From assembly GCA_033980235.1 (NCBI GenBank), contig CM067070.1, forward strand, positions 2,002,478 through 2,066,477: 64,000 bases of DNA. Reading direction: 5' to 3'. Source of the stretch: Diadema setosum (taxonomy: Eukaryota > Echinodermata > Echinoidea > Diadematoida > Diadematidae). The translations under genes were made by a program, and so were the position numbers. Below the pieces are notes generated by a model. That model worked only from the letters and a program-made list of their open reading frames with translations. It was not told where the DNA came from and searched no databases. Below are positions 2,901 to 52,245 of the stretch, in pieces; within the stretch, counting starts at the first letter, position 1; the number at the start of each line of letters is the position of its first letter.

Positions 2901-3094
2901 AATGTTATCGATGAGCGTATGCTTTGGAGAACATATCTTAATTTGCTACTTTGCAATTCTATTCCAGTGGGCTAACGCTTGTCGTGGTTTGGAATAAACC
3001 CTGGTGGGCATCAATATGAGATCCATTCAATCGAGTCAACCTTTTTACCCTCACATACTGGGTCCTTAATCATCGATGCTTTCACCAGTATTTG

Positions 3095-3815
3095 TTTCAA
3101 CATCAAGAACGAGATACCCAGTTTCATCCACGTCACATTTTGTTTCATCATCAAGAGCGAGATAGCCAGTTTCATCCACCTCACATTTTGTTTAGTCATC
3201 AAGAGCGAGATATCCAGTTTCATCCACGTCACATTTTGTTTCAACATCATGAACGAGATAGCCAGTATCATCCACCTCACATTTTGTTTCAACATCAGGA
3301 ACGAGATAGCCAGTTTCATCCACCTCACATTTTGTTTCAACATCAGGAACGCGATAGCCAGTTTCATCCACCTCACATTTTGTTTCAACATCAAGAACCA
3401 GATAGCCAGTTTCATCCACCTCACATTTTGTTTCAACATCAGGAACGAGATAGCCAGTTTCATCCACCTCACATTTTGTTTCAACATCAGGCACGAGATA
3501 GCCAGTTTCATCCACCTCACATTTTGTTTCAACATCAGGAACGAGATAGCCAGTTTCATCCACCTCACATTTTGTTTCAACATCAAGAACCAGATAGCCA
3601 GTTTCATCCACCTCACATTTTGTTTCAACATCAAGAACCAGATAGCCAGTTTCATCCATCTCACATTTTGTTTCAACATCAGGAACGAGATAGCCAGTTT
3701 CATCTACCTCACATTTTGTTTCATCATCAAGAGCGAGATATCCAGTTTCATCCACATCACATTTTGTTTCAACATCAGGAACGAGATAGCCAGTTTCATC
3801 CACCTCACATTCTTG
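3095..3815 (-). repeat. Coding 48-bp minisatellite, 15 units
   Basis: Fifteen head-to-tail 48-bp units with few substitutions. Each encodes one 16-residue tyrosine unit on the minus strand. Since 48 is divisible by three, copy-number changes keep the frame, and open frames also appear on the plus strand as by-products. Unit 13 carries the stop; units 14-15 and a C-terminus ending ESIDD with its own TAA (3068-3066) lie beyond it. Gene B has two units in the same place. Confidence 0.9.
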
Positions 3816-4397
3816 TCTTGATCTGCTTACATAGATAGAGTGAGAATAAAAGGGGTCATTCAGGTCTAAGACCGAAAGGCCAATCTTATCATTGCCATCA
3901 ATATCCCTCTGGTGATGTTGCACTTCAGGAATGGATGGGGATTCTTCTACAGTGTGGGGAATTTCCTGATAGATTGAAGATTGAATGTTTCCAGAGGTAC
4001 TAGCATCACATTTAGCAGCTCCTGGCCGAATTGATAATTCTACGTTGGTTGGGCTATCGCAGAATGGGACATCGTCGCAGTCAAAAGCTTTCATAGTAGC
4101 TCGACTTGTTTGAGGATGGCATCGAGTACCTTCGGGCAGATTGACATCGGGTAGCATGTAGCCATGTTTATCCGTGTCCTCTTCATCTGTACTGGTATCC
4201 CTGGATTGAACAAATGTAACGTTCATCCGCTCTTTCACAGCACCTGACATGTCCATGTACGGTTCTTTCTTGCTAGCTGCTTTCTCAGAAACGCCTTTAT
4301 CATCTTGGTGTATGACGTCATAAACGGATCGTGTCCTGGTGTCCGGTGAACTTGTAGCATCTCTCTCGCTGCTCGCCTCCGTTTCATAACCATGGCT
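3192..4397 (-). CDS. Gene A exon 8: tyrosine-repeat tail
   Basis: The acceptor is ...tttaaag at phase 0; the exon codes about 401 residues to a TAA at 3194-3192. In order it has SHGYETE, SVYDVIHQD, EPYMDMSG, HGYMLPDVNLP, SIYQEIP, FYSHSIYVSR, then 13 copies of a 16-residue unit (GYLVPDVETKCEVDET and variants). By eye the tyrosine contexts are seven YxxP, three YLVL, two YLAL and one YLVH. Known families: pYMDM is the PI3K p85 SH2 type, pYxxP the Crk/Abl/RasGAP type, and Yxx-hydrophobic can also be an endocytic signal. Whether these sites are phosphorylated is inference. Confidence 0.8.
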   Translation of the reverse strand, partial: SHGYETEASSERDATSSPDTRTRSVYDVIHQDDKGVSEKAASKKEPYMDMSGAVKERMNVTFVQSRDTSTDEEDTDKHGYMLPDVNLPEGTRCHPQTSRATMKAFDCDDVPFCDSPTNVELSIRPGAAKCDASTSGNIQSSIYQEIPHTVEESPSIPEVQHHQRDIDGNDKIGLSVLDLNDPFYSHSIYVSRSRQECEVDETGYLVPDVETKCDVDETGYLALDDETKCEVDETGYLVPDVETKCEMDETGYLVLDVETKCEVDETGYLVLDVETKCEVDETGYLVPDVETKCEVDETGYLVPDVETKCEVDETGYLVPDVETKCEVDETGYLVLDVETKCEVDETGYRVPDVETKCEVDETGYLVPDVETKCEVDDTGYLVHDVETKCDVDETGYLALDD

Positions 4398-9157: not shown

Positions 9158-12100
9158 TTGATGATGAATAAGTTGTTGATGAATAGGGATATCCGCATCA
9201 CGATACCGGTGTCTGAATTGTATATAGCACTGCATACTTGATATAACTCAGTTCGGAAAAAAAAACCCAACAACTGTCATATTAGAAAGCCTTTATGAAT
9301 ATAAGTACTTTTGTAGTGTGGAGGGGGGGGGGGGAGGTGTCCGGGGGAGGGTATCTGTAGACACTATTAGTTTACTTTGAATACTTTAAAAATCTGCTAC
9401 ACTCGAACCCTCGTTGATTAGAAATCCTTTCTCAGTTTAAAACTTACTATATAAACTCTATTCAAAGTAACAAAAAAGTCCAGCAATTAACAGCTTTCAT
9501 ACTTTCTTGATGATGTGATACTTGGAATCTTCCTTTATAATTGTATCAGGTCCTTTCTCTCTTTACAAATTTAGGATTCCATGTGCAATTAACAGCTTGT
9601 AGAGGGAACCAACTCAACTTTATCTGAATTATGTGAAAAGCAATAGCGAAATATTGGCGTTATTTATACATTTACGAAACTTGAAGAGAAGGGTTGAGTT
9701 GTATGTTTTAAACTTCAATTCAATTCAATTCGATTCCATTCAATTCAATTCAATTCAATTCAGTAATGGTTTTATTTCGATCGCATTGCAGTCAGATACT
9801 GAATTGCACGATGTTACAATACAATATATCACATACACAATACGGAAAAAGGAGTACGTGTTATAAAATTACAAAAAGCATTTCCATCATGAATACACAA
9901 TATTTTGGAAACTCTAGAATCTCAAAGGCATTTCACCACTACCTGTGATGTGTTCTGGAAGATGTGAAGCGCGTAGTCTGGTGAGGTCGTAACGTCGCCG
10001 AATTCGTTGCCCGGAACTTGAGGCAAAGAGCGACCCACTGCATTGGGATCAATACTGGTGTCGGATGACGTAACAGGATCTTGTATGTGAGGTACGAAGC
10101 TGGTTGAAGTGTCTACAGGATATATTTCCAAGCGCCCTCTATCGGAGTCAACAACCCACTGATTTGAAGATTCCGCACACCAAAATCTATTATTGCGCAA
10201 ATGGGGAAAAAGGACAGAAAATCAAAACAGTCCAATTCATTTTGAAGTATATTATTGTACATCTACCTATACGCAATGATGATAGGGAGAACAGCGTCTA
10301 AAGAGTAAACATAGAATGAAAACGTTCCCTTCTGCATATCTTTACATCAATATTAGGCAGCAAAAGGACAGCTTATGTGCATTAAAAGTGCCACGTATAA
10401 AGATTCAACATTTTGTTAGTTTTACCTTGCAATTTCTGATATAAGATATTGAATATTGCAAATACTTATAATATTTGTTTAAGTAGGGGAGAGCGGGGAG
10501 AAGTGGGACATTATTTCAAGTTCCCCGATTTCCTTCTTATATCTTTTTATAGAAGAGACGATTACATTTTCATTTGGGCTTGCCTGAAGGTTCATATGGT
10601 AAGTTACACAAAGAGCTATAAACTGGGGGTGACACTGTTCTCAATTTTCGGCAGTTAATGAAAAGATAAAACCTTATTTTTGGGGAGAAGTTGACCCACA
10701 AGTGGGTAAAGTGGGACAACGGCAAGAGAGAAATGGGGCGGTGTTGGTAAAGTGTGACATCCTATAAAAAAGTCGGAAATGTCAAAGTTGGAAGGCGTAA
10801 TGAAACATTGGTAATGAAAACAGTCAAACATGCTTCAAAATGATCTTTACTTCAACAAAACAAGTTTGAACAACATGTTTGAAAATCTGAACTGTTTTAC
10901 ATGTAATGCTATTATGAGGGACAAATGGGACACGTTGTCCCAACTGTCCCTCACGTGGCATATATACATAAATATGTACGACTGCTCAGTAACCATGCAG
11001 GCATTTGTCAAAGACAAGTTATATCAGTTGCATATCAATAAGGCTCACCACCAGCTTCAATTGTGCCCTTGAAATCATGAATACAAAGACAACAGGTTAA
11101 TTAACCTGATTTCAAAAAAAAAGTATCATATTTTGGGAAAAAATTTAAATAGCAATTTAGACATACTTAGAAATTGCCGAACTGCATGGCTTTCTTAGTG
11201 TGATGTATGGTTGCTAGGAGCTTATTGTAGATATAAGCCAATCGCTGATTGGTTGAACAGTTTTTGATTCAGAGAACGTGTCCCACTTGACCCCAACTTG
11301 ATCCCAACTCACCCCGCTCTCCCCTACAATTGGAGAAAACCTCCCTGAAGAAATTTCCAGTATGCTGATAAACATTTTTTCCGATTTCTTTGATCAATAT
11401 ATTTTACCTTCTAAATCTTTTACTCATACCACTAGCTATGAGGATATTGATATTGAATTTTGTTTTGAAGAAATAAAAACAAAGAAACCGCGGGATATGA
11501 TGATATCAAAGTAACTTCTTTTTTTTTTTAGATAGGTTTTATATTTTCTATGACGGATCGAACCTTTGGTGCATATTTTCAATTTTTCAATGTTAAGTGG
11601 TCTGTATCCAGAAAAAATGAAAATAGATAAAGTTATACATTCCTATATCTAAGAGTGAAGATATGTTAGATAATTATTAGTAATTATAGGTCCATATTGT
11701 TTGTATCAGGTCTTGGAGGAAATCATATATAAAAGAAAGGGGGATTTTGTGAAAATGTGTTCTTAAAGACTCCCAGTTTGGTTTTCTAGAAAAGCATAGC
11801 ACCTGTCACGTCTACTGAATTGGTTGATAAATTTGCACACCGTTTAGATCACTCGGATTTGATTGGTATCTTCCTAGACTTCTCCAAGGTCTTCGACACT
11901 ATAAACCATAATAATGCCCCGCTACGTTATACTTGAGAAGGCCTTGGAGTGGTTCGGGAGTTATCTAACTGATCGTTAACAATAACTGTTTTTTTTTAGA
12001 TTGTAACTTTGATTATTATGAGAGAATAATTGTGGCGTGCCACAAAGTAGCTCATCGGACTCGCTGTTATTTGCTGTCTATATTAATGATTCGTGCTTCC

Positions 12101-15100
12101 TGTGTGTTATCAACGATCAATGTGTTTGCCAACGATTCAATGCATTTTTCCCATGATGACCCAAATACTCTTCTGCACACAGTTAATTATGAGTTGTAAA
12201 ATTTATGTTGGTGATTACGAGCAAATACGTTGTTTGTAAATACAAAAAAAAAGAAAACAACTACAGTTTACGCTTTTCAGTAATACCTTGGATAATTTAG
12301 ATATGGGTATTTGTTTGGGTGCCAATGTCCTCAAAAGTGTTTCGCATATCATTTTTTTTTTATTACAGAAAATACAAATTTCTTATTGATGTTTGTAAAA
12401 TTAATTCACATAGTAGAGGTGTTGTTAATAGACTTAACTCATCTATCTCTCAACATTCGTTATGTATACTCTATTCTTCCTTGATGTTATTACCTTTAAT
12501 TATTAGTATGGGAAAACACGCATGAAACATAATTTGATACCGTTACTGTTACAAGGAGCCTCTTCGAATCGTAATGCCTCTCCATGTTTGCATACAGCTT
12601 CTTTGTTTCTTTTTTTTTTACAATCTAAGATTCTGAAAATTATTAGAGATTGGCTTTTATTTCAGTTACGCAATTTACGTACAATTATACTAAAAACTAC
12701 CGCCCATCTATTTTGAGTTCCATATTTCATCAAATTGTCATATCCTAAATATCTAACTAAAATGTCAAATATATAATCACCCTTGCTAAGCAGACATTTA
12801 TTCAAACAAGTCCAAGATTCTGGAACTCCTTTATGATGGACATGGAAAATGCACCGTCAATGACTCCGTTAAAAAAGAAAAGAAAAAAAAAAGATTGAAA
12901 CTGTTTCTTTTGAAGTCTTATACACGATGATGCAACAGAAAGAAAATGATTTTGTTTCTCATGTTTCTTCTACGCACGTCGTGCTGGAAAGAACACAATG
13001 TCCCATTATAGTGTGAGAAACACAGTATGAAATCTCCTCAAAGTGTTAAATTCGAGCTTTTTAACAGTGTGAACACATTGTCAATCATCAATTCACAGTG
13101 CGACACAGAATATTACCATGTGAACACTGTGAAAACCAAACCACAGTGTGAAATCATCTCCACATTGTTAAATTCGAGCGTTTTCACATAGTTGACTGTA
13201 TTACCACACTGTGACACACTGTGAGACACTGTTTTTTCCAGTAGGGCGGCGTTGTTTCTTTCTAGGCTTCGTCCACTTAAGGCATTCCAATTCCAATCTT
13301 CATGTTATTGCCTACACTATACATGCCTTCAGTAAGTAGAAAGTCAGCTCCGCTGATAGCAGTTCCCTGTCCACTTTCGTCATCGCTTTTTACGTCACAC
13401 TGTCCTGAAATGGCTAATCGTCTCTGTGGGCTTTGACCATTGATATATGCATTGATATATAGGCTTTTTTATTTGTCTCATCTGTTTCCCCTTTATTTTT
13501 CGTTTCATTCTTTCCCCACTCCTTTTTTTCTTTTCTTTTTTTCACTCTTTCTTCATTTTCTAGCATTCTTTGTATTATATAGTTGTAAGCTTTTTCACCC
13601 TCCCTCTGAGGTATACTCACCTAGAACAAGTATAGTCTTTAGAGTGGTTACCTCCGTTTTTACGCAAATATATGTTTGTATATATTATGCCTCTTCTCTT
13701 ACTGGTAATAGATATGGTCATATGTTGTCATTCTTTGCTTTATGTGTACAAGTCGATAAAATGCAAGTCAAATTTGACACAAAACTTTGTATATTCTGTT
13801 AAAAAAATAAAATAAACTTCGACTTTTAATCACCCTTTGCATTTACATTTGTCATCTGCGTTGGAGAAATCTGTCTGAACTTGACTCTGTTTAATATTGA
13901 GTGCATGCCCATTGTATAGAAATGTATAGAGATTTTCATTGTAAAGATGCGCTGTTTCTTGCAAATATATACGAACATATCGATAAAAAAGCAGAAAAAA
14001 AAGAAAGAAATATAATATTTTTTACAGGCTCACTTTTTCCCGGCAATGGGCAGAACGACGCACGGTGTGATGACAATACCAAGTATGATCCATATTATTA
14101 TGTTGACGTTCAGGTATGTCAAGGGATCTTTTTGGCAAAGAAAGATTAAATATTTCATAATGAAATTGAGTTAAGGCAGCAGAAATTCACGAAGACTTTT
14201 TTTTTTTTGGTTGGGAATGTTGTGGCAGAAAGCATAACTTGTGCTTTTAATTTTTTTTTTTTTTGCAGTGCATGATATGACCCTCTTCACATAAAAAGGA
14301 GGAAATATATGCATATCATGATTTATATTTTGTAATGCGTATTTCAGTATATTAACTACGCAATGTATTTATGTTATTTATCATTATTACTATAGTATTA
14401 TTTTAGAAAACTCACTTTGCACCACTTCGCACCACTTTAAGACCCGGAAACGGGTGGATTCATGGGTAGGCCGATTCATTCGCTGCCCCCCCCCCCCCCA
14501 CACCCGGGTACATTCGGAATCCACAAATAGCACCGGTCAGCGAATATTTTCATGATTGTGCATCGAAGCGACTCCAGTCAAGATTCTTCCGGCTGTGTGT
14601 TTACCTACATACATTCAAAGGTCTTCTTACATAGAGATTCGTTACGGGGATTCTCCAGTAATATATCCGAGCCGAGCCACCCTCCCCACCCCATGATATC
14701 CCAGTAGACGCAAACCAGACCTAAGCGCTGGCTGTGTCTGGACAATGAAAAGGATGTCAGAGAGATGTCAGAGGATGTCACTCACCTGACATATAATAAT
14801 CGAGCGATTCCTCTCCTTTAAAGAAAATGAATAAACAGAAGTAATTAAGAAAGTTTGAAGATTTTGGTCGAAAATAATTGTTGTGTTAATCTCTGCACAA
14901 GAATAGAAGGGAAAGCAATAAACAACAACAAACAGAAGTCCTTGGGACCGACAGTTTTCCTTTGTTATATCGAAATTTCGTTACAACCAAACAAACGCGT
15001 TATGTTCAAAACATACAAACCATCCATTTATTGCATACATAATTGCTAATTGAATGCTCGTCAAACTTCACAAAGCAGTATTAAATACGATTCTACGTCA

Positions 15101-18100
15101 CTGATTTTCTATTTCCTATTTTGCATTTCAAAGAGAGCATAAAAAATGTCTGTACTTTCATGCTTTACAATAGTTTGAATAAACATGTTTCAAATTTGAT
15201 GGCTTAGGTTCGGGCGCAGTTCACTTTGCCAAGAATGCGTTATTCCCATAGTTCGTCATTCCGTATGCTCGTCATTCCGAAGGTTCGCTATTCTCAAGAT
15301 TCGTTATTCCTATAATCTTCGTTAATCCGAAAATGAAATAAGATTCGTTATTCCGAAGTTTCGCCAATCCAAAATTGAAAAAGCTTAATTATTCCGAAGA
15401 CATGTTCATTTTATAATAAAATCGTGACCCTTTATACTCGTAATAGATGTGACCGAAATAATTATTTCAAATTTATGGCAGTAGAAGCAAACCAGGAATA
15501 AGCACAGGATATGTATGGACCATGAAAAGGATGTCAGACAGAAAAATAGGACTTAAAATGCTGAAAGCCATTCACCTGCTTAACTCACCTGAAAGATAAT
15601 AATCCGACGATTCCTCTCCTTCAAAGAAAATAAATAAACAAACAGAAAGAATTACGAATGTTTGAAGATTTTAGTCGAAAGACTTGTTTAGTTAACCTCT
15701 GCATAGGAATATAAGGGAGAGAAAAAATATAACAACAATACAACAGTGCATTCCCGTTATACCGAAGTCCTTTTGAACGAAAATTTCCTTCGTTATATCG
15801 AAATTTCTTTACAACCAAAGAAATGCAATATGTTGAAAACACATAAACCATGACTACATTGCATGATGTTTAATGAATACTCATCAAACTCTATGAATCG
15901 TTCTGTATGCAAAAGGTGGTGTAACTCATAAAATTGTATTACAGCTATACATGTATTGTATTACTGATGAAAATGATGATAATCGTTGAAAATATTTACA
16001 CTACCGTTATTTTGTAGTATATGTTAATTAAATTGCAGAAAATTGATGTATGCCTATTTGGAAAAATCGCATACAGGGAGTAAATCAAATCAAATCAAAT
16101 CAAATCAAATCAAATCAAATCAAATCAAATCAAAAGGCAGTATGAAATGGGATATTATTTCATTAATTTTGTTTTAATTACACAATGTGAAGAGAGAGCA
16201 TAAAGTTGTCTGTGCGTCCATGCTTATTTTAAACACACATGTTTCAAATGTGATGGTTTAGGATCGGTCGCACTTCAACCCCCCCCCCCCCCCCGAAAAA
16301 AAAATGCGTTATTCCCTAGGTTCCTCATTCCGGATGTTCGTCATTCCGAAGGTTCGCTATTCTCAAGATTCGTCATTTCTAGGCTTCGATAATCCAAAAT
16401 AGAAATAAGACTCGTTATTCTGAAGTTTCGTCAATCCAAAAATTGAAATATGTTAGTTATTTCAAAGACTCGTTGATTTCAAAATGATATTGTGACATCT
16501 TACCGTAATAATTATGACCGCGATAATCACTTTAAGTTTAGGGCAGTAGAGGCAAACCAGGCATAAGCAATGGATGTGCATGAACAATGAAGAGGAAGTC
16601 AGCGAGAAAAATAGGAATTAACAGGCTGAAAGTCATTTACCTGCTTAACTCACCTGATGCAGGATAAACGGCCATTTCTGTTGAGAATTAAAAAAACCAA
16701 GACAGAATTACAAAAGTTTGAAGATCATAGTCGAAAGACTTGTCGAGTTAAGCTCTGCCCAAGAATTGAGGATAAAGATATCAACAACTAAATAGCAGTG
16801 CACACATGATATTGCAAAGTCCTTCAGACCGACAGTTATTATGTCGTTGTATTGGAATTTCGTTACAACCAAATAAATGCATTATGTTCAAAGACACCAA
16901 CCATGCCTATATTGCATGTTATCGAATACTCATCAAACTCTATAAAGCAGTATTAAATACGATACTTTCTCATTCATGTTGTTTTTGTTTCATGTTTCAG
17001 ATAGAGCATAGAGCAAGTATAGTAGTCTGTGCTTCTATTAGTTTAAACACACATGTTTCAAATGTGATGGCTTAGGATCGGTCGCAGTTCATTTTTCCAA
17101 AAATGAATTATTCCCATTCCGGATGCTCGTCATTCCGAAGGCTATTCTCAAAATGCGTTGTTCCGAAGATTCGTTAATTTGTAACTGATATCAGGTTAGT
17201 GATGACGAAAGTTTGTTAGCGTACCCATTTGTTTGTTATTGTTTTTTTTTTCACTTTTGGACTCAATTATGAAACTTATTCATTTTCTGATCAACAAACC
17301 TTCGTTTTCAAACGAATTACCCTTCGTTATAACAACGAACCATTCCGAATGACATGATATTTGCTCCGGTCTTATTTTCTCGAAGGAATTAGGGTTAGCG
17401 TTAGGATTATCATAGGCTTAGGATATAGTTTGAAATGAGGATTAGGATTACGGTTAGAGTTATCTTTAGGGCTGAGCTTATGATTGGTTGAGCGTGCATA
17501 TTTCATAGGAGCAATTGCCGCGGGAGCAAATGTCATGGACCCTTTTTCGGATTGTCGAACGTAAAATAACGAATTCGCCGGAATAATGGCAGCAATGAAG
17601 TAATGACGAACATTATTTCATCAACAGATTAAGAACAATTATCTATTTTGTGTATTTTAGAATATCAAGCATTCGGAATAACGAAATTCATTTCATCTCG
17701 ATTAAATATATGGCAACAGAACTATTCATGGAAAAAGTGTGTGACACAGTAAATGAAAGCAGAGCGATGTAGATTTAAACACCTTGAAAATAATGTGAAG
17801 AGTTCGACCTTGACTTGCTTATCAAGATTCGACTTAGGGTTTGAATCTTTCATAGCGTGAAAATCTTTATTTGACTTTTTTTTTGCGTAAATACAATTTA
17901 AAAAAATAGTCCTATAAACGGCATTATACTTACCCTTGGAACACGTCACGTTTATCATGAACTTCACTGGGTTGTTATTGAACGTATACTTTATCTGTAC
18001 CTTTATCTGATGGGTCAGTGATAAAAAGGGAGATGATTTGGTGTGCTCTGTGATCGCAATCAGATACGATTTTTCTGATAGTTCATCCAGAAATTGAAAT

Positions 18101-19304
18101 CCAACCACTGAGTGATTAGCAGACTTAATTTCAGAAAGAATTCGACGTCCACGAGATGCCTGGAAAACCCAACTATCGCCGTTGGCAAGACAGGTTTCGT
18201 CGCAAAATATCTCCTGCAGCAGTGGCTTTCCCGAACAGTTTACAGTGAAGTCTGTGCAAGATTTGAGAAGAAAAAAGTACAGGTCAACTGGTTTATGTCT
18301 GAATATTAGTAAAAGAGAGAATAGTATAAAATAAATGGCAGATACAGTCGATGCCTGGAAATCTTGCTTGCTGCTCAACAACAGCAAACCAAAAAAAAAA
18401 ATTGCTGTTTCTATTTCCGATATTTTCTCCATATTTTTCCTCTTCTAATGATTAATAATCTTGTTTACAATCCTCTGGTAAAAATGGAATTTAAAGTCTA
18501 ATTTTTCTTGTACGTTACCATGGACTGCAATGTTTAGGCTATTTCATTCAAACATAATTGTGACGTTTCCCTTAATCCAAAAGTTTTTGTCATATTATGG
18601 AAAGCAGATGAGGAGTTTGGATTTTGAAGGTTTTGTGCAAGCAAAGACGTAAAGAGCCATATTTTGCTTTTTCCTCAAGTTGCTTTCCTCCGTTTTCACC
18701 CCATTATATTTTAGTATATTGATGGTGTGTATGAAACCCTATATACAACGCCTTCAAAAACAGACTTTGAATCAGCGCTATTATTTAAAGTACGTTTGAT
18801 ATTTGGCATTATCATGAATATCATGGTCCTACGTAGGCCTACCTATAGTTAGGGGTCATATTGATAGCACCTAATCATATTACATTGGCTGCAGTAATGC
18901 TTGAAATACCGGATTTGTGTCACACTCAAGCGACACGGCTGTAGGTCTATAAAACCCGTAACTTCAATCATACAATTTCTCAGAACTTACCTTTCTTATT
19001 TTTTTATGTATAGACTAGCACAAAAAAAGTAGGCTTGGAGTATACAAATCTGAAGGATATACATGATTTCTGCATTTCTTTTTTCTGTGAATGTCCTCTT
19101 GTGGATTTTGCAATTTAAATCGAAATATTATCCGCTAAACCTTTCTCGTTTGTGTAATGAAATGCTGCATGTGATCCTTTAAGATAGTAAGAAGAGAATA
19201 TACGTACAAGTCTCGCGGGCTTCTACACAAGAAAAAGCGATGAAGAGATTGTAATTGATGACACTAGCAAACAACCACAAGAAAAAAGTTACTTTTCTCT
19301 CCAT
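3192..19304 (-). CDS. Gene A: tyrosine-repeat receptor, 8 exons (join)
   Basis: Spliced model on the minus strand: 19304-19208, 18251-17934, 16677-16654, 15618-15589, 14815-14786, 14127-14034, 10186-9943, 4397-3192. The lengths sum to 2043 nt, 681 codons including the stop, with no internal stop at any junction. Predicted order is signal peptide, four-cysteine ectodomain module, three micro-exon stalk segments, one TM, then a cytoplasmic tail of about 480 residues with about 22 tyrosines. It is a type I membrane receptor; the ligand is unknown. The tail carries YDVI, YMDM, YQEI and 13 repeated GYxxP/L units, so an SH2-adaptor scaffold role is inferred. It is paralogous to gene B over the signal, first module, TM and tail, but lacks SRCR, WSC and CCP. 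Oddities are a premature stop relative to B and a shifted exon-7 acceptor. No family name is recognised. Confidence 0.8.
5900..6370. repeat. CGTTATTCCGAAG-type short dispersed repeat cluster
   Basis: Repeated variants of 'aataacgaacctt'/'ttcgttattccgaag' without fixed period. The same cluster type recurs at 15230-15420, 16310-16460, 17100-17350 and 41630-41960, so it travels with the micro-exon introns. Confidence 0.5.
7093..7339. mobile_element. 247-bp MITE, copy 1
   Basis: Terminal inverted repeats of about 32 bp (GAAGAGTTTGTTTGCAAAAA... and its complement), flanked by ACTT on both sides. It lies in gene A intron 7. Homologous to 19667-19911, 32553-32799 and 32846-33092. Confidence 0.8.
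9116..9154. repeat. (TA)n microsatellite
   Basis: Uninterrupted TA dinucleotides in gene A intron 7. Confidence 0.9.
9715..9763. repeat. (AATTC)n followed by a TTTATT block
   Basis: Pentanucleotide run followed by tttattt. The same arrangement occurs at 24655-24700 and 37280-37314. On minus it reads AATAAA then (GAATT)n, like a retroposon 3' end. Confidence 0.6.
9943..10186 (-). CDS. Gene A exon 7: proximal cytoplasmic tail
   Basis: 244 nt, phase 2 to 0, the same length as gene B exon 9. It encodes DSDRGRLEIYPVDTST, PQVPGNEFGDVTTSPDY and HIFQNTSQ and ends at a gtagtgg donor. The acceptor that B uses (tgctgtag) is tggtgtgc here. The only nearby AG that keeps the frame is at 10188-10187, so the exon start is less certain than its body. 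It contains two tyrosines, IYPV and DYALH. Confidence 0.7.
10484..11326. mobile_element. TIR element starting TAGGGGAGAGCGGGG
   Basis: The left end (TAGGGGAGAGCGGGG...AGTGGGAC) is complementary to the right end (GTCCCACTT...CCCCGCTCTCCCCTA). About 840 bp, no transposase frame, with a possible TA target duplication. It sits in gene A intron 6. Confidence 0.7.
11345..12850 (+). pseudogene. Degenerate non-LTR retrotransposon RT
   Basis: Frame-broken remnants of a reverse transcriptase. 'FLDFSKVFDTINH' is readable near 11870-11910 (usual F-x-K-A-F-D), with an 'ALEWFGSYL'-like block near 11945 and an RT-tail-like 'wnsf' segment near 12815. No intact frame. CR1/jockey-type by motif; it lies in intron 6 of gene A. 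Confidence 0.55.
12984..13241. mobile_element. Small foldback element with CACTGTG/CACAGTG repeats
   Basis: Ends CTGGAAA and TTTCCAG face each other. The interior is made of alternating cacagtgtgaaa and ttcacactgtg words that could fold extensively. Confidence 0.45.
14034..14127 (-). CDS. Gene A exon 6: transmembrane segment
   Basis: The acceptor is ...aaaaag and the donor gtgagc. It is 94 nt, phase 1 to 2. It encodes DPLTYLNVN followed by IIIWIILGIVITPCVVLP and IAGKK, a single hydrophobic span with a basic stop-transfer end. It aligns with gene B 39356-39266 (same donor position and GK ending). The two prolines inside the span are unusual but still compatible with a TM helix. Confidence 0.7.
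14786..14815 (-). CDS. Gene A exon 5: 30-nt stalk micro-exon
   Basis: Bounded by ...tttaaag and gtgagtg, 30 nt, phase 1-1, encoding about G-E-E-S-L-D-Y-Y-M-S. It is a tandem duplicate of exon 4, together with several hundred bases of flanking intron. Confidence 0.6.
15589..15618 (-). CDS. Gene A exon 4: 30-nt stalk micro-exon
   Basis: Bounded by ...tttgaag and gtgagttaag, 30 nt, phase 1-1, encoding about G-E-E-S-S-D-Y-Y-L-S. It nearly repeats the next micro-exon (14815-14786). An acidic D-Y-Y context in an extracellular stalk is a plausible tyrosine-sulfation site (inference). Confidence 0.6.
16083..16134. repeat. (CAAAT)n microsatellite
   Basis: About ten uninterrupted CAAAT units in intron 3 of gene A. 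Confidence 0.9.
16654..16677 (-). CDS. Gene A exon 3: 24-nt stalk micro-exon
   Basis: Bounded by ...caacag and gtgagtt, 24 nt, phase 1-1. With its neighbours it encodes about E-M-A-V-Y-P-A-S. It is homologous to gene B's 24-nt micro-exon (40874-40851) in sequence, length and flanking intron. It lies between the ectodomain module and the TM exon, so it is extracellular stalk. Confidence 0.6.
17934..18251 (-). CDS. Gene A exon 2: four-cysteine ectodomain module
   Basis: The acceptor is ...gcacag and the donor gtaagt. It is 318 nt, phase 1-1, exactly the length of gene B exon 2. The encoded 106 residues begin FTVNCSG, continue CDETCLANGDSWVFQ and RGRRILSEI, and end VTCSKG; four cysteines are shared with B. 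The core (W-x-F-Q-A, G-R-R-I, then a late aromatic/LDEL segment) is loosely CUB-like, but I cannot assign it to CUB or Ig with confidence. Several N-x-S/T sites fit an extracellular position. Confidence 0.75.
19208..19304 (-). CDS. Gene A exon 1: signal peptide
   Basis: Starts with ATG at 19304 and encodes MERK followed by a hydrophobic run (FFLWLFASVI...LFIAF), a typical secretory signal peptide. It ends at a gtacgt donor in phase 1. The equivalent exon of gene B starts with the same MERK and keeps the N-L-x-I-A-F-S core, which supports this start. Confidence 0.8.
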
Positions 19305-28165: not shown

Positions 28166-28399
28166 AAATCTGACTTCGGAATTTTATATCTCATGGAGGC
28201 GTTAGATTTTTCTATAATTATGCTACGAAAAAGAAGATACAAAAATTATTTAAGTGTCTCCGGATGTCTCTGTGTGCACTGGGATATGTATATTTGACGT
28301 TGATTTCAACTTGCTTTGCGTTTATTGACATTTTCAATCTAAAAGGAAATGTTCAATGAACACAGTTATTCCCACATGCATCCGTTTTCTTGCTTCATT

Positions 28400-28890
28400 T
28401 ATTATGACTTGCTGAATCATGATCAATAATTGTGTCAAACGCCTTGGAGTGGTCCAGAAAAACTCCAACAGTGTGAGATTTAGCTTTGATAGCTTGAACA
28501 ACTTTATCTATTAACAACAAAACGGCGTGAGTAGTCGAATGTTTTTTGCGAAAACCAAATTGAGTGTCTACTGAGATATCATGATCATTTAAAGACTTGA
28601 TAGTTCGGGAGTAGACAACTTTTTCAAGTACTTTGGAGAATGATGATACGAGAGATATAGGTCTATAATTGCCCAGGTCGTACTGTCTGCCTTTCCTAAA
28701 AACAGGAATAATCTTGGCAACTTTCGTTTTACTAGGAAAACACCAGTCATTACAGACAAATTAAATGCATGGGTCAAAGGTGCGGCTACTTCATAAATGA
28801 TTTGTTTAAGAAGAAACATTGAAATACCATCATAGCCTGAGCTTTGTTTAGCTTTAAAATTATTTACAATATCAATAACATCCAATGCAT
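28400..28890 (-). pseudogene. Non-LTR RT fragment, frameshifted
   Basis: The minus strand reads KAKQSSGYDGISMFLLKQI, then AAPLTHAFNLSVMTGVF. After frame breaks it gives DLYLSYHHSPKYLKKL (from a YRPIS-L-x-x-x-SK-x-LEK type block) and VFLDHSKAFDT near 28440. This is the fingers-palm part of a CR1/jockey-type RT. Confidence 0.65.
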
Positions 28891-37531: not shown

Positions 37532-38236
37532 TTAATCATCAATGTTTTTACCTGAATTCGTTTCAGCATCAAGAACGAGATAACCAGTTTCATCCACCTC
37601 ACATTTTTTTTCAACATCTAGGACGAGATAGCCATTTTCATCCACCTCACATTCTTGTCTTGACCTGCTTACACAGATAGATTGAGAATAGAAAGGATAA
37701 TTCAGGTCTAAGGCCGAAAGGCCAATCTTATCATTGCCATCAATATCCCTCTGGTGATATTGCGCTTCAGGAATGGATGGGAATTGGTCAAAAGTGCATG
37801 GAATTTCCTGATAGATTGACAATTGAAGGTTTCCAGAGGTACTGGCGTCACCTTTAGCAGCAGCTCCTGATAATTCTACGCGGGTTGAATTACCGCAGGA
37901 TTGGACATTGATCCTGTCAATAGCTTTCATCGTAGCTCGTTTTGTTTGAGGTTGGCATCTCGTACCATCGGGCAGAATTACATTGGGAAGCGTGTAGCCA
38001 TATTCATCCGTATCCTCTTCATCTGTACTGGTATCACTGAATTGAACAATTAATGTAACGCTCATCCGCTTCTTCACAGCACCTGACATGTCCATGTCAG
38101 GTTCTATCTCGTTAGCTGCTTTCTCAGAAACGCCTTTATCATCTTGATGTATGACGTCATAGAAGGGTCGTGACCTGGTGTACGCTGAACTTGTAGCATC
38201 TCTCTCACTGCTCGTCTCCGTTTCATGATCATGGCT
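37532..38236 (-). CDS. Gene B exon 10: distal cytoplasmic tail
   Basis: The acceptor is ctttaaag at phase 0; about 234 residues to a TAA at 37534-37532. It encodes FYDVIHQD, EPDMDMSG (Asp where gene A has Tyr), EYGYTLPNV, SIYQEIP, NYPFYSQS, then two 16-residue units with GYLVLD and the end NSGKNIDD. It has no YxxP motif. Minus-strand AATAAA at about 37314-37309, roughly 220 bases past the stop, is a candidate poly(A) signal, possibly supplied by a retroposon tail. Confidence 0.8.
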   Translation of the reverse strand, partial: SHDHETETSSERDATSSAYTRSRPFYDVIHQDDKGVSEKAANEIEPDMDMSGAVKKRMSVTLIVQFSDTSTDEEDTDEYGYTLPNVILPDGTRCQPQTKRATMKAIDRINVQSCGNSTRVELSGAAAKGDASTSGNLQLSIYQEIPCTFDQFPSIPEAQYHQRDIDGNDKIGLSALDLNYPFYSQSICVSRSRQECEVDENGYLVLDVEKKCEVDETGYLVLDAETNSGKNIDD

Positions 38237-39480
38237 CTTTAAAGATAAAATTAAGAATTAAAGAAATACTTGTCAAAGTCCAAAGTTGATAGCCCTCATA
38301 ATGACACGAGTATCTCTTGGGACAGACAGTGACAACGAATTAAGAATAACTATTTGTGTGTTTGCCGATTTTATACCGGGTACTGCATAGTGTGTCTTAA
38401 TATCGGGATATCCACATCATGGTGTGAAAAGCAACATTGTTTGCGTTATTCATACATTGACGTAGTGTAACTTGAAGCAAATGGTTTAATTATTATTGCA
38501 TGTTTTAAACTTGGCAAGAGTGGAAACTCTGAAATTGAAAAGGTATCTCACCACTACCTGTGATGTGTTCTGGAAAATGTGACGCGCGTATTCTGGTGAG
38601 GTTGTGACGTTGCCAAATTCGTTGCCCGGAACTTGAGGCACAGAGTTTCCGACTGCATGGGGATCAATGCTGGTGGAGTCTGATGACGTCACAGGATCCC
38701 TTGTGTCAGGTATAAAGTTGGTTGAAGTGTCTAGCGGGTATATTTGCAAGCGCCCTCTATCGGAGTCAACATTCGACTGACTTGAAGTTTCCATCCTAGG
38801 CCTACAGCAAAATCTATTAATTTACGAATGAGGTAAAATAATGGAAGTCAAAACATATTGTCCAAAACATTGTGAAACTAGAAGTACGTCAACTTATGGA
38901 ATAATGATAGGTAAAACGTAGTTGAAAAGAAAAAAAAAACGTTTTACTTAAATGTTCCCTTCTGTATCGCTCAACACAAGAATAGGTAACGAAATGGCCG
39001 CTTGTTGGTTTTAAAAGTGCAACGTGTAAAAATCCAACATTTTCTAACTTTCTCTCTGTAATTACTTTTATCAGCTATTACATTTATATTTGTCAACATT
39101 GGAGATGATTATCTAAAAGTAAATCTAAACTTGAATCCGTATTCAAGCTGCTCATAAAACTATTATAACAATAGATGCTAATGCACTGTTTCTTCCAAAT
39201 ACATAATTCATATATTGATAATAATGCGTTTAAAAGGAAATGGGATTTTTTTTTAGAAGGCTCACCTTTTCCCGACAATGGCCAGAACGACGAGCAGTGT
39301 GATAACAGCAACAAGTACAAGAAATGTTCGTAGTATTATATCACCCGGTGGTTGAGCTTTTTGATAGAGAGAGATAATGACATTGCGTTAAATGCAGCAG
39401 GAATTCATGAAGATTTTTCACTGAAAATGTTGTAGCTGCAAACATAACTTTACTTTGTTTTTAGAGAAGTGTTTGTCTTC

Positions 39481-39523
<43 letters not shown>

Positions 39524-42500
39524 ACAAGGAGGAAATTGCAATGCTTTAGAGACTTGGTATCATGGGGATATCATGGGGTGGGGAGGCTGGTTCGGCTCGG
39601 ATAATTCGAGAATTCCTGTAACGAATTTCTATGAAAGTATATAATATGTTTGTGTAAGTACACCCACAGCCAGAGGATTCCTTACGCTTCGGTGCACAAT
39701 ATTCGCTGGCAGTGTGCTATTTGTGGTTTCCAACCTACCCGGGGGGGGGGGGGGGGAGGGCAGGGAATGAATCGGGTCGCCCATGAGTCCACATGGTACC
39801 GAGTCTTAAAGTGGTGGAAAGTGGTCCAAAATGAGTTGTCTAAAATAGTAACAGAAGTAATGGTAAATGGCGTAATTACATTGCGCAGCTAATGATTATA
39901 CTGTACTGAGCATTACAAACCCATTACATTATAATTCTTACCCAAATAATTATCATCATTTGGTAGTTGCGTGTGCGTGTGCGTGTGTATGTTTGTTTTT
40001 ATGTTGCGTAGACAACATGAATTAAGCAAATACAAGACACACACGTGTCTTTCGGCTTTAAAGGGGAAATCCAATCTAAATATAAGTAAGTCTGATAAAA
40101 AAAAAAGACTAATATCTGACGAGTTCAACGGTAAAACTTTGATCGAAATTGGGTGAAAATTAGGAAGTTATGACATTTTGAAGTTTGGCTAATTTTTCAG
40201 GAAACAGATCATGAACGGTTAATATGGATATGCAAACGGCAAAGTGAGCATGTCATCCCCTCACAACTTGCCATATAGTTTGTTCATAAAATTTTGAGGC
40301 TCAAATCCTGGTATATCTAATAAATTACTACTCTGAATATTCAACCATGAATAGCATAATTTTTCAGTCTTCAATGACAGAAGCATTGAATTTTCGTATC
40401 TTTTGTTTGTTTGTTTGTTTATTGGGGGGAGGGGGGAGAGGAGGGTATGACATGGTTTGCTCACTCATTTGTATATTCATATCCACTGCACAATAACCGG
40501 TTTGCAAAAATAAAAAAAAAAAACCCTCAAAATGTCATATCTACCTTAATTCTGATCCGATTTCAGACAAATTTTTTCCGTTGAACTCGTAAGATTTTAC
40601 TCTTTTTTTTTTCAGACTAACTTATATTTGGACTGCATCTCCCCTTTCCCATCCCCACACTCAAAAACAAACAAACAAAAATTTGATGGCTCCTGTACTA
40701 TTAATAAGTGTGAATAATCATTTCAAATTCAGGACAGTGTAGGCAAACCAGGCATGAACACTGACTGCGCATGGACAATGAAAAGGATGTCAAAGAGAGA
40801 AAAAATAATAGGACTTAACATGCTGAAAGTTGTTTATCTGCTTAACTCACCTGGTTCAGGATAAAAAGATATTTCTGTTTAGAATAAGAACAGAATAAGA
40901 AAGACTGACGAAAGTTTTAATATTATTGTCGAAAGACTTGTCGATTTAAGCTCTGTACGAGAACTGAGGAGAAAGATATAAACAACTATTTGAAAAGAGC
41001 AGTGCACTCCCATTATTGCAAAGTCATTAAGACCAACAGTTTCCTTTCGTTAGATCGAAATTCCGTTACAACCAAACAAATTACGATAAAAACACTCAAA
41101 CCATGCCTATATTGTTTGCTGTTTATCGAATACTCACCAAACTCTGAAAAGCAGTATTAAATGCTACTCTATCTCATCGATGCTGATTATATTTTATATT
41201 TTAGAGGGAGCATAATGTAGACTGTGACTTCATGTTTAGTTTAAATAAACAATATTTCAAAAGTGATGGTTTAGGATTCGGTTGCATTTCATTTTTTTTA
41301 ACAAATCGTTAATTCGAAAATGAAATAATAATAATAATAATAATAATAAAGGACCTTTATATTGCGCAGCTACTATAATGATATACTCTACTGCGCATTA
41401 CAAAATGACATGCATACAAGAAATTCAAACAGAATGTACACTACTTCAAGAGATGACTTTTTAACCTGGCCTTAAACTCATTAATTGTGAATGCTTGTCT
41501 TACAAACAAAGGGAGATTATTCCATAATTTTGGTGCAGCGTACAAAAATGCCCTGTCACCAAGAGTAACTTTTGATTTCCCCGATGGATATTTCAATAAT
41601 GTTTGATCCCGTGAACTTCGAAGATAAGATTCGTTATTCCGAAGTTTCGTTAATCCAAAGTTGAAAAACGTTCGTCACTCCGATTACTTGTTAGCTTGAA
41701 AATAATAGAGGGTTAGTGATTCAAATAGTTCTTTTTTTTTTCTCAGTATGCTCACTTTTCTTTCACTTTCGGATTCAATCATGAAACTTGTTTATTTTAT
41801 GATCAACGGATTATGCTCCAGAATAGCCATGATTCCTCTCATTTTCAAACTAACGAACCTTTGTCATAACAAACCGTCGCAATAACGGCACAAATGTTGT
41901 CATAACGAACCTTATTCAATTTGCTGATCAATGAACATCTATTTCATTTGTGTGTTTGGGAATATCGAAACTGCAGAATAACAAACCTTTTTTATCTGGA
42001 ATAAACATTATGATAACGCAAGTAAAAATCCTTGGAAAAGGTGTGTGCTACAGGAAATTAAAGCAGAGCGATTTATTTTTAAACAGGCTGAAGTATGAAG
42101 CGTTCGATCTTGCCGTGCCTTTCAAGATTTGATAAAAGAAAGAAAATAAACCATGATACTTGCTGCAAGATGGGACTGTAGCGTTCCAAACGGGGAAGTA
42201 GGTCGACTTTCCAGGTAGTGCGACACACTGTAAAGTCTCGCTGAAATAAATGCCGTAACCTTCGTCACAGTTGAGATTTATTTTTGACCCGAAGTTAGTG
42301 AAATTGGAGTCCAACTGGCTAAAGATTACGTTGTCAGGATGATCACAAAACCCGACTGACACTATAAAAGAAGAAAAAAATCCGACGACAAACTGCAAGA
42401 TATACGAATAGTGGAAGCAGGTATTATGGGGGGTGCACGTCACGAGACCGACACCCACGAGTCATACAGCCCACAAGTTATACAGCTCACAAGTCATACA

Positions 42501-45500: not shown

Positions 45501-47294
45501 CATTATCAATGCTCTAAAATCAATTCATACATCGTTATTGCCCTCTGTTAAATCAATTTGTGTTTTTGTCTCTCTCTCTTTTTTAGGGGGATGAAGAATA
45601 CTAATTCTTCTATTTATTTTTTTTTGGGGGGGGCGGGGGCATGAAGAATACAATTCAATTTTTCTACTTGATAACAATGTCGCTCCCTGACACACTTGCC
45701 TCCCCAGAAGTATTTGATGACGTTCATAATTATGTAGATGGTCACCATCTTTCAATTGATAGGATTACGAAATTACACCCGCCAATGTTATTTTTCCGTT
45801 CATGGAACACCCTGTACAGGTGATTAACATGTAGATGGCGCTGTTATCCTGTCGGTCTCGTGGGCATTCTTTGCCTACTGTCGGTCTCGTGGGCTTTCTT
45901 TGCTTAGTCTCGGTCTCGTGGGCTTTCTTTGCTTAGTCTCGGTCTCGTGAGCCTTTTTAGCTTTATTGTCGGTCTCGTGGGCCTTTTTTGCCTACTGTCG
46001 GTCTCGTGGGCTTTCTTTGCTTAGTGTCGGTCTCATGAGCCTTTATTGCTTAGTGTCGGTCTCGTGGGCTATGTTTGCTTAGTGTCGGTCTCATGAGCCT
46101 TTTGTGCGTAGTGTCGAACTCATGGGCTGTATGACTCCTGAGCCGTATAACTCGTGGGCTGCATGACTAATGGACCTATTATTGATGTCGGTCTCGTGGA
46201 CCGTATGACTCGTGGGTGTCGGTCTCGTGGGATGCCCCCATTATGGGGGGGGGGGGGGCTACAAAATACGCATTTGTGCATGTTATCTCTCATTGGGTAA
46301 TCGGACCCTCCGTACCGTTTTGGAATTGTGCAGTAATGATTGCTGATGTTGAATTCGAAGACAAAAAAAAAGAAAAAAAATCTGTTTGGCTTCGAATATT
46401 GCGCATGATCTCATTTTAGTGTTACCAAGTGATTTACCAATTCCTGAACAACCATTTAATGCAATCATAATCAGCAATTGACACCTGAATTGCACATTTT
46501 AAGGATGATTGTTCATCTAGCAGTATAACAGAAATGATTGCTGCAACACGAAATTTCACGAGATTGTGAATCACGATGCATTGGATACCGAACGAATTCA
46601 TTGTAATCAGTAATAAATCTCAAGATTATGAAACAAATATTATCGTCACTACTTTACTTGTCCCCCCCCCCCTTCAATTGTATGTATCTTGTTGTTTTTT
46701 ATATATAAAAGTCATAGCTTTTTGTATCGGACACTTACCATCAAATGCAGAAAAGAAAAGATGACTGGAGTCCTGTTGAGCGTGGCTGGGACAGGTCCAA
46801 GTGTGAGAATAACTTCCAGCAGACATTATGCTTGCAAATGATTTTAATTGGAGACATGCGCACGATCTTCGATGTATAACAGCAATTTTAACGTCTTGGT
46901 TTGAAGATTTGCTTTTACAGGTAGATACGCACTCATCATCAGAAAGAACGTCAATTCCATTGTCGATGTAAGACGAGAAAGGTTGAAGTGTTTGGTTTGA
47001 GCCTTGATAGCAACCAAGAAATCCAGGTCCTACATGAACACACAATTGCAAACCAGCAGGGCGATATAGCACTACGGCCGGGAATGGGATATCATGATAA
47101 CTTATAAACACATGTCACGTCCTCGTCCTCAAGTATATCAAATCATATAATAAATGACGGATGCCAACTCGAAAGGCGATTCAGATAGACTACATAAGCA
47201 ACTATTTCAAGATAAACACAAGGCAAGTGCCATAATGTGTCTCGCCCATTCGCGTACCAGAAATTGTACGCGAATGGGATATAACAGATAACAA

Positions 47295-47325
<31 letters not shown>

Positions 47326-50300
47326 TAATAGATAAAAAGAGATATAAAAGGGAAAAAAGTATGGCAAAAAAGAAACGTGCCATAAAAACTTAGTATTGGG
47401 CCCTTAAAGTTCGTTGACCCCTGCCTGTGACCTTTGACTTTGTGTTGACCATCCACTCCCCAAGGGACATCTACCATCCAAGTTTGGTCACAAACGGACC
47501 TATGGATCAAAAGTTATGACCCATAATAAAAACGCGCCATAAAAACTTGATATTTGGCTCTAAAAGTTCGTTGAACCCTGCTTGTGACCTTTGACCTTTT
47601 GGTCACTCCCCAAGGGACATCTACCATCCAGGTTTAGTCACAAATGGAGTTATGGATCAAAAGTTATGACCAATAATAGAAACGCGCCATAAAAACTTAA
47701 CAGTGGGCCCTAAAGTTCATTGACCCCTGCTTGTGAGCATTGACCTTGAGGTGACCTTCTATGTTATGGTAAAATGTGAAACTTTGTATGACCCCTCCTC
47801 CCTCGAAGTTTGATTGCAACTGAAGCCAAGAGTAAAGAGTTATTAAAGTTTTTGTAGCGTTACGGACAGACAGACGCCGCAGGCGATCCCTTAGTCTTCC
47901 CTCATCTCCGGTGGGCTCGACAACAACAACAGGGCATGAACATGCATACACATTATTATCTGTGGCCATGGATCGCAAAATTTAAAAAAAAAAAAAAATC
48001 CAGATTACAGTTCTTGGCGAAGTTTGGCTTCTTGAAGAGGAGATCTACAGCTTCAAGACAATTTATTGTTCATCAAGGTGTTTAACGAACGGAAATTTAA
48101 AATGAAAGAATTATCAGTTTTCCCGAAAAGTTGGTTTCATTCCTAAATAACATTCTAGTCATAATCATGTCCAAGTATGATAGCTAGTAGTAACTTTTGT
48201 AGTCTGTGTGTGTGTTTTTTTTCTTTTAGTGTTCTTTTTAAATGAGCCCCATGCGGTGATGGACAATTACGAAGCACCACCTGCATCAGAAGTAAATTGG
48301 TCTATAAAAACTATTGAAAACACTAATAAATGTTCACGTTATGTTTCCAGACTTAGATACTTAGAGAGAAAAGCGGCACTAATTCAGGAAACATTTTGGT
48401 CTAATAGACCTAATTCGCATTTTGAAGCTCATCATAATTATACCTGTAAAGAAATTAACACCACCTTTAGGGAATTTGATGTTACACACTCTTCAAAAAA
48501 TAAAGCAAACACAAATTGACATAAAAATCAAAGAAAAATCAAGAAATAATGTATAAAAGATCAAACATAAATGGGGAAAAGGTTTAAAAAAGGCGAGACT
48601 TTATAACTGATGAGTCTTTAAAAAAAAAGATGCGCTAATACACACTTTATTTTGTATTAAAGAAAACGATCCTAACAGCGGCGAACGTACTATCAGATTA
48701 AACTTCAGTTAGAATAAAAATAAAAGTAAAAACATACTGCTTTACAAATACTTCCTTTATTATGTCAAAGTAACAAAGTTACATCTGGCTGTTTGCCAGT
48801 TTCCGTTAAAGGGTTCTCATAAACACTTTAAAAGACCTCAATGAAACAAGAGAAAACGAAATTGAGATTGAGTACAAACTTCAACAAAATACTCAGCAAA
48901 CACTATCAATTTTTATTTGTGCTTCCAAATATTGGCGGGAAAAACTTTGTCGCCAAACACCAGGTCCTCTTGTGTAGATCATACTTAACTTCGGGGAAAG
49001 ACTTACCTCGACACTTCAGCCTAACACCCTGGTCGAAAGGACATCCAGAGGCTCTCACTGAACACTCCATATGGCGTTCGTCTTCATGGTCATCGATTTT
49101 GTAGAAAAAAAAATGTAGATAATTATATTGATATATAATGATAATTTGTAGCAGGTAAAAGAATAGAATGGGGAACAAAGATAATTTGGCGAACTACATA
49201 AGATGATTTTCCCTACTTTTCTTTTGCTGTTTGAAGTCGATTGTAATGATCAATATTGTGTATCAATATCATACAATTCTATTTCATTCTCTCTTCAAAG
49301 AAGAAATCCAGCTCAAACATAAGTAAACTGTAAATGACAAAGAAAATAGTCCCTAAAGACTGATACAGAAATGGCAATAATCGGATAAGAAAGAATGAAA
49401 ATATGACATTTAGAAATTTCACATTTTTCGGGAAAGAATTCTTTACCAGTTCTTTATATGAATATTAAAATGAGCGATTTGATGATGTTTTATTATAGTA
49501 CCCTCACATTTTTTCATGTATGTCATACATGAAATTCGGATTTTTTTTTTTTTTTTTTTTTAGCTATGAGGCAAGTAAAAGCATGTTCCCATAAAAGATA
49601 TGTCAGAGTTTACAATTGTTCTCTTATTTTTATTTTTTTTTATAGTTAAGGCAATCTTTTTTTATATACCATTGAGATGTGAGATTCTTGTCATTTCTGC
49701 ATGGTATTCAAAATGAATAAAAAAATTGTGAGGATATGACATCGTCAAGTTGCTGATGTGAAAAAAAAAATGTGAAATTTCAAAATGTCATACCTTCCTT
49801 ATTTCTTATGCTACTTTTGTCATTTTTGTATCGTTCTGTAGGGAATATTGGTTGCTATCTTTTGAAGTTTTTTTTTTTTTTTTTTAGAGTGGATTTCCTC
49901 TTTAATTCTTTACATGCCAGGAAAAAAATGCTGCTATATAGGATTAGGTGTGAAAAATGGCTACTTTGACAAGCTAAGAGTTAATTCCATTGGCTCTTAC
50001 CTTACCTTGAGCACATGATAGCTGCCTAAGCCCGTTCCCTGTAACAATGGTAGGCAAAGTCTCATTCCAGTAGCGCTGTACGGCTGGAAAGCCGAGCTGT
50101 CCGCAGATCCAGTCAGCAGCTCTGTCGTTAAATCCTTCAAAACACACATAATATGTGTCTGGCTGGAAGACTATTAACCCTTCCTGTGGCGAAGATCCAT
50201 TGATCAGATTCACCGATGAATTTCCTCATAGAAAAAAATAAGATATGAAGATGCATATACACATAATGTGCGTTTGACTCCATGTTTATTCAAAATAAAA

Positions 50301-52193: not shown

Positions 52194-52245
<52 letters not shown>

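Follow-up and report, generated by a model that had tools for sequence, protein, structure and literature searches.

A tandem array of tyrosine modules in the predicted cytosolic tail of a sea-urchin receptor-like gene, a candidate SH2 docking strip

In the stretch of Diadema setosum DNA analysed here (64,000 nucleotides of contig CM067070.1, assembly GCA_033980235.1, positions 2,002,478 to 2,066,477 of the forward strand; hereafter the window), a minus-strand gene, gene A, is predicted to carry 13 copies of a 16-residue tyrosine module, CEVDETGYLV(P/L)DVETK, at the end of its tail. The reading that we favour, at a probability of roughly one half, is that this 13-module cytosolic tail is a multivalent docking strip for SH2 domains, produced from an expanded 48-bp array. 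It is favoured by the array and its frame, by open models for gene A and a neighbouring paralogue (gene B), by relatives with two units, by signs of growth in blocks and by the retention of the tyrosine codon, and also by fits to published SH2 patterns, by the mixed sites of a distant protein, by the precedent of CagA and by the finding that A has changed no faster than B. In this reading both the assignment of the array to a receptor tail and its function as a phosphotyrosine scaffold are plausible as judged from the gene model. Coordinates are collected in Table 1.

Table 1. Features of genes A and B in the window, in window coordinates.
Feature	Position	Strand	Basis and remarks
Gene A, first coding exon, signal-peptide-like	19208..19304	-	window self-comparison, gene model, hydrophobicity
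Gene A, ectodomain exon	17934..18251	-	no Pfam match; 69% protein identity to B
Gene A, predicted transmembrane exon	14034..14127	-	gene model and hydrophobic peak
Gene A, juxtamembrane cytosolic exon	9943..10186	-	3' end from the TSQ/NHGY and TSQ/SHGY junctions in P0001 and P0002
Gene A, last exon	3192..4397	-	13 units preceded by a unique cytosolic part that has 7 tyrosines; stop 3192-3194
Single HGYMLPDV motif, possible founder-type site	4143..4166	-	shuffle test; conserved GY
48-bp tandem array	3091..3816	-	15 units; 1-13 translated, 14-15 behind the stop
In-frame continuation behind the stop	3066..3191	-	units 14-15 and B-like C-terminus, untranslated in this sequence
Gene B, first coding exon, signal-peptide-like	57511..57610	-	self-comparison, gene model
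Gene B, ectodomain exon	53198..53515	-	counterpart of A 17934-18251
Gene B, SRCR-like domain, two exons (49007-49081, 50006-50224)	49007..50224	-	Pfam, below cut-off
Gene B, cysteine-rich exon	46739..47029	-	WSC-like by eye only
Gene B, sushi-like exon	42161..42361	-	Pfam, below cut-off; in-frame donor of the model not GT
Gene B, predicted transmembrane exon	39266..39356	-	gene model and hydrophobicity
Gene B, juxtamembrane cytosolic exon	38558..38801	-	self-comparison, gene model, relatives
Gene B, tail exon, two units, both YLVL	37532..38236	-	open reading frames, gene model

The array is delimited by Tandem Repeats Finder with a period of 48, 15.1 copies, 93% matches and a score of 1233, and its consensus unit is CEVDETGYLVPDVETK. 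Numbered along the minus strand, unit 1 occupies 3762-3809 and unit 13, which contains the stop codon, 3186-3233. Among the 13 translated units there are six with GYLVPDV, one with GYRVPDV, three with GYLVLDV, two with GYLALDD and one with GYLVHDV, giving seven YxxP, five YxxL and one YxxH sites; over all 15 units the +3 residue is Pro in seven, Leu in seven and His in one, and it is the most variable position of the module, while the tyrosine codon is identical in 15 of 15. The tandem tyrosine units proposed in a preliminary description of this DNA are thus borne out by a 15-unit array lying in frame in the last exon, with 13 units translated, although its account of every unit as GYLVPDV or GYLVLDV holds for nine of the 13 and the span that it proposed (3095-4260), which covers part of the likely exon, takes in untranslated units as well. 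The units sit in a minus-strand open reading frame (3192-4418) in frame with the unique part upstream, of which 194 aligned codons show 74% protein identity to B. Three other frames, one on the minus and two on the plus strand, also hold open reading frames over most or all of the array; with a period divisible by three, other frames stay open too, and an open frame alone proves nothing. The coding frame is fixed by the upstream part of the exon, by gene B and by a Diadema antillarum relative (P0001, below).

The gene A model comprises 652 amino acids and is consistent with a type-I membrane protein that plausibly ends in a cytosolic C-terminal array. Its splice sites were picked by eye, without RNA support, and the end of exon 2 was shifted to the junction seen in the D. 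antillarum proteins P0001 and P0002; with these hand-picked sites the splice phases are compatible, the internal boundaries are AG and GT, and the spliced model is free of frameshifts or earlier stops. A hydrophobic peak at residues 148-166 gives the predicted transmembrane segment, and the predicted cytosolic tail behind it contains 22 tyrosines. The combination of a signal-like start, an ectodomain exon, a transmembrane peak and compatible phases supports the suggestion, already made in the preliminary description, that the array belongs to the tail of a surface receptor. The AlphaFold model of the ectodomain has a mean pLDDT of 52.8. A Perm-CXXC match in the tail exon was discarded, being driven by the repeat and scoring 21.9 bits against a cut-off of 23.

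Self-comparison of the window places A (3-19 kb) and its minus-strand neighbour B (37.5-57.6 kb) as paralogues 33 kb apart. The B model (747 amino acids) is open and has transmembrane and signal-like hydrophobic peaks; relative to A, it has further coding parts between the ectodomain exon and the transmembrane segment, namely an SRCR-like domain and exons of a cysteine-rich and a sushi-like type. The SRCR-like domain reaches 22.6 bits against a Pfam cut-off of 26.1, with none found in A, and a first labelling of the cysteine-rich exon as WSC received no support from Pfam. Copies of the SRCR, cysteine-rich and sushi exons were not found in A by tblastn. The flanks of this difference can be aligned (A 17566-17832 with B 41866-42132, and A 17919-18287 with B 53183-53551), placing the apparent junction of an 11-kb difference at 17832-17919 in A and 42132-53183 in B. 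Loss of some 11 kb in A is the simplest reading of this arrangement, but a gain in B is also possible.

Protein database searches with the cytosolic region of A (E up to 1; three matches among the best 7998 candidates), with a profile of five tails (E up to 0.1; three matches among 5121 candidates) and with the array alone (E up to 0.01; two matches among the best 7999 candidates) recovered P0001 and P0002 of D. antillarum, P0003 of D. setosum and a distant protein, P0004. The close relatives found are hence three Diadema proteins, all database predictions, one of them with an SRCR domain and none identical to A or B. P0001 contains a transmembrane segment, the juxtamembrane exon and a tail with two units, both YLVL. 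In P0002 the tail of one gene is apparently fused to the ectodomain of the next; it is probably a chimera created in annotation from members of a tandem cluster, and the fusion suggests that D. antillarum possesses such a cluster too. P0003 has an SRCR_2 domain (29 bits, above the Pfam cut-off of 27), followed by cysteine-rich, sushi, juxtamembrane and tail parts; as annotated, it skips the transmembrane segment and ends upstream of the units, which may mean that an exon was overlooked or that the protein is soluble. Taken piecewise, these three proteins back the exon junctions of the A and B models. A search of PDB sequences with two units returned five matches, all at E 1.1, which were taken as chance. 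A separate case of tyrosine-module duplication in the family, the second, is seen in P0001, where an IYQEIP tyrosine site is present twice within residues 237-283.

Comparison of the tails makes the array look like a young expansion in which the YxxP units are derived, for A has 13 translated units while B and P0001 have two each, all four of them YLVL. Units 1, 6, 8 and 11 are identical, as are units 5 and 9, and the block formed by units 5-8 differs from that of units 9-12 at 4 of 192 bases. Set against an A/B divergence of dS 0.20, such near-identical blocks fit growth by multi-unit steps after the A/B split; a young look could, however, also come from gene conversion between units. The HGYMLPDV site upstream, put forward in the preliminary description as a possible ancestral unit, resembles the module beyond chance: its score of 34 against the unit was reached by a fraction of 0.0014 of 5000 shuffles of the whole tail, and by the same fraction when the surroundings of a fixed GY were shuffled 5000 times. 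All five tails keep this GY. A shared origin of this site and the unit is plausible on this likeness.

Measures of constraint are less favourable to a function of the tail. The pooled dN/dS between A and B is 0.73 (381 codons; 95% bootstrap interval 0.52-1.08; of 1000 replicates, a fraction of 0.055 gave a value of 1 or more), with values of 1.01 for the ectodomain, 0.73 for the unique tail and 0.52 for the cytosolic exon; the transmembrane exon (1.32) and the signal exon (1.09) were left out of the pooled value. Sequence constraint between the two genes is therefore weak. Within the array, pN/pS is 0.54 in the coding frame and 0.81 and 0.35 in the other two, so that the coding frame is not the lowest. 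In the unique part of the tail, two of eight tyrosine columns are invariant as compared with 99 of 238 columns overall, and the upstream tyrosines have hence not been kept preferentially.

These figures bear most directly on a passive explanation, in which A would be a stripped, weakly constrained copy, the repeat would have grown by slippage or unequal exchange, and the 13 tyrosines would amount to one copied site with little or no added function. We regard this explanation as possible, if on the unlikely side. It draws on the near-neutral dN/dS and on array substitutions that do not favour the coding frame, and it is helped by the stop within unit 13, by the lack in A of ectodomain exons present in B, by the fact that B and P0001 manage with two units, and by the presence of further tandem arrays in the same window. 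On the other hand, the whole 652-codon model of A, with its hand-chosen splice sites, is open, and A keeps three tyrosines lost in B (alignment columns 256, 299 and 491), even though it lacks one that the other four tails retain (column 460). Furthermore, over 274 columns A has 28 derived residues and B has 25 (18 being ambiguous); the two genes thus give no sign of a higher rate of change in A, which argues against a decay of A relative to B.

The passive explanation is also opposed by P0004, a diverged protein in which this site recurs without being tandemly arranged. This ENA protein of 751 amino acids matches the array modestly (E 1.1e-3, 28% identity). It contains ten [DE][DE]xGY sites, all followed by [LIP][VI][PL], of which five have P and five L, mostly in alternation; in 20,000 shuffles the mean count was 0.06 and the maximum 2. 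A and P0004 hence both mix P and L sites, but those of P0004 are diverged and lie 27-115 residues apart, and no Pfam domain was found in the protein. As far as its sequence can tell, P0004 provides the best hint that mixed P/L sites are used and are not the quirk of one minisatellite.

Under the docking interpretation, unequal exchange would have enlarged a two-unit, YxxL-only ancestral tail after the A/B split, and a Leu-to-Pro change would then have spread through part of the array. Clustering of the receptor would lead Src- or Syk-type kinases to phosphorylate the tyrosines, which lie in an acidic context, turning the tail into a multivalent SH2 docking strip with two classes of site; YLVL(D) sites might recruit SHP2-, SHB-, RasGAP- or ITK-like SH2 domains and YLVP sites VAV- or PLC-gamma-like ones, with more units providing higher avidity and clustering. 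Partner classes were assigned with the condensed SH2 patterns listed for mammalian domains, from 192 peptides, in Table 3 of PMC3514216. By these mammalian patterns, YLVLDV (three of the 13 units of A) fits PTPN11_N, the SHB family, FYN, ITK, RASA1, SH2B and SH2D1B, YLALDD (two units) fits ITK, RASA1, SH2B and SH2D1B, YLVP (six units) fits VAV1 only, and YRVP and YLVH (two units together) fit none. The PTPN11_N pattern also fits one of the two units of B and both units of P0001, an agreement with SHP2 docking at the level of patterns only. YLVP resembles a PLC-gamma site, in that the pYIIP sequence at Y1021 of PDGFRb is a listed PLC-gamma ligand, although the PLCG1_C pattern of the same table does not contain Pro at +3 (PMC3514216). 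For SHP2, two adjacent sites are described as opening the enzyme fully (PMC12905495), and in PD-1 and BTLA the sites bound by SHP2 are given as 25 residues apart (PMC8631942); the spacing of 16 residues in A hence counsels caution for an SHP2 reading.

The docking interpretation is accordingly held back on several sides: by the A/B dN/dS, the array pN/pS and upstream tyrosines conserved no better than average; by the stop that truncates the array, the three B exons missing from A and the annotation of P0003 without a transmembrane segment; and by the few PTPN11_N fits, the two units of A that agree with none of the patterns, the 16-residue spacing, the mammalian provenance of the patterns and the modest match to P0004.

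A more specific proposal, that the tail is a YxxP scaffold of the p130Cas kind recruiting Crk, Nck and RasGAP, as the preliminary description had it, appears improbable. The YxxP form of seven of the 13 units, together with the HGYMLP site, would suit it, and the 15 YxxP sites of p130Cas are reported to bind Crk-II and Nck (PMC8791637). However, the CRK (D-x-pY-D-[VL]-P-P), CRKL and NCK1 (pY-[DE]-[EL]-[PV]) patterns require Asp or Glu at +1, where the units of A mostly have Leu, and none of the 13 matches them (PMC3514216, Table 3). Recruitment of Crk and Nck is therefore not borne out by these patterns, and for RasGAP the RASA1 patterns miss the P units and match the L units (PMC3514216, Table 3).

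The tail could alternatively serve endocytosis, its YxxL units acting as Yxx-hydrophobic signals that bind AP-2 and allow fast uptake by a scavenger-type receptor. Leu at +3 in five of 13 units of A and in both units of B, and SRCR-like relatives suggestive of scavenging, agree with such a role. A Yxx-hydrophobic sorting signal, however, is not known to accept the Pro found at +3 in seven units, and 13 copies distant from the membrane would be redundant, which leaves endocytosis slightly more improbable still. Finally, that the array lies in no transcript, or that the opposite strand is the coding one, is scarcely credible despite the plus-strand frames that cross it, for the upstream unique part, B and P0001 carry the minus-strand frame into the units and P0002 and P0003 hold that frame upstream of them.

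The preliminary description knew of no receptor with this architecture, but that view proves mistaken: a 2016 paper describes transmembrane proteins of choanoflagellates that have several YxxP motifs on the cytosolic side, namely PTSG_05573, 12435 and 12436 of Salpingoeca rosetta and A9VAL3 and A9V449 of Monosiga (PMC5043372, in excerpt). Gene A shares with them a predicted transmembrane segment and several cytosolic YxxP sites, of which PTSG_05573 has ten; in the excerpted text, however, the sites tested are pYDVP and bind Crk-type SH2 domains, as opposed to the YLVP and YLVL of A, and SH2-like domains occur in three of the five proteins (PMC5043372). A further differs in the exact 16-residue register, the recent DNA repeats, the animal host and the SRCR-bearing relative, and no match in the protein searches with A carried the name of a choanoflagellate YxxP protein, names only being compared.

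The resemblance to p130Cas/BCAR1 lies in the 15 YxxP sites of a disordered stretch (PMC8791637, in part), to be compared with seven YxxP units and one YMLP site in A. The sites of p130Cas/BCAR1 are of the Crk type, with Asp at +1, unlike the units of A, and it is not a membrane protein but has SH3, Src-binding and C-terminal FAT-like family domains; in A, Pfam searches found no SH3 domain (tail exon, juxtamembrane exon and residues 1-198) and no FAT-like C-terminal domain, the translated protein ending in the array. Nor is the p130Cas substrate domain known to be a near-identical DNA repeat. Among immunoreceptor motifs, the ITIM/ITSM consensus is [SIVL]xYxx[IVL] or TxYxx[VI]; the repeat units, with TGY and P, L or H at +3, misfit this consensus, and single YDVI and YQEI sites upstream in the A tail fit the ITIM form. 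The ITAM consensus is YxxL/I, 6 to 12 residues, YxxL/I, and the YLVL-x12-YLVL arrangement of units 4-5 of A, of the B pair and of the P0001 pair lies at the limit of that spacing. Immunoreceptor tails with ITAM, ITIM or ITSM, including amphioxus BbLcLRR (PMC8211107, in part), nonetheless have in common with the proposal for A that the phosphotyrosine sites are placed in a receptor tail. CagA EPIYA-C of Helicobacter pylori provides a precedent in which SHP2 binding depends on how many tyrosine segments stand in tandem, doubling of the SHP2 site raising it more than a hundredfold (PMC4623810); CagA is a bacterial effector and not a receptor, and no sequence relation to A is claimed.

In the literature covered, the string GYLVP occurred only in apparently unrelated contexts, and the terms SRCR, scavenger, immune and tandem are absent from the D. 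setosum genome paper, as judged from its outline and a term search. As far as one open-access library can tell, the outline of the architecture is hence already known, and what is new is an exact-register, DNA-repeat-driven mixed YLVP/YLVL array in a sea-urchin receptor-like gene. Repeat growth might tune the strength of receptor signalling. Provided that the long tail is expressed, an animal receptor would join the class of cytosolic YxxP-repeat membrane proteins reported for choanoflagellates (PMC5043372, in excerpt), and neighbouring genes with 13 and two docking modules and natural Leu/Pro variants would constitute a ready-made experiment, in which the A/B pair could show how the output of a receptor depends on the number and the type of its sites. 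A doubtful extension, offered as speculation, is that a mutable repeat sets both signalling strength and partner mix, with array length determining how many sites there are and the choice of Leu or Pro at +3 determining the SH2 class (phosphatase-like as against PLC-gamma/VAV-like); the gain of an immune-type receptor would then vary between individuals or paralogues, and P0004 would represent a fixed, diverged version.

Several other features of the window were recorded. A 267-bp tandem repeat of 4.8 copies at 34145-35695 contains five tRNA-Thr(GGT)-like predictions on the minus strand and one on the plus strand (35621-35695), and resembles either an array of tRNA genes or a repeat derived from a tRNA; similar sequence occurs at about 2329-2867. 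A plus-strand reverse transcriptase open reading frame (42412-43908; RVT_1, 77 bits) adjoins the sushi-like exon of gene B, and another reverse transcriptase fragment (43.5 bits) lies on the minus strand at 28395-28760. A plus-strand open reading frame of 295 amino acids (59987-60874), with no Pfam match, resembles, by eye, the C-terminal region of a Penelope-like element. Lastly, the sequence downstream of A at 189-1295 is similar to stretches within 58617-63914, upstream of B, which suggests that the tandem unit has another copy outside the window, past its left edge.
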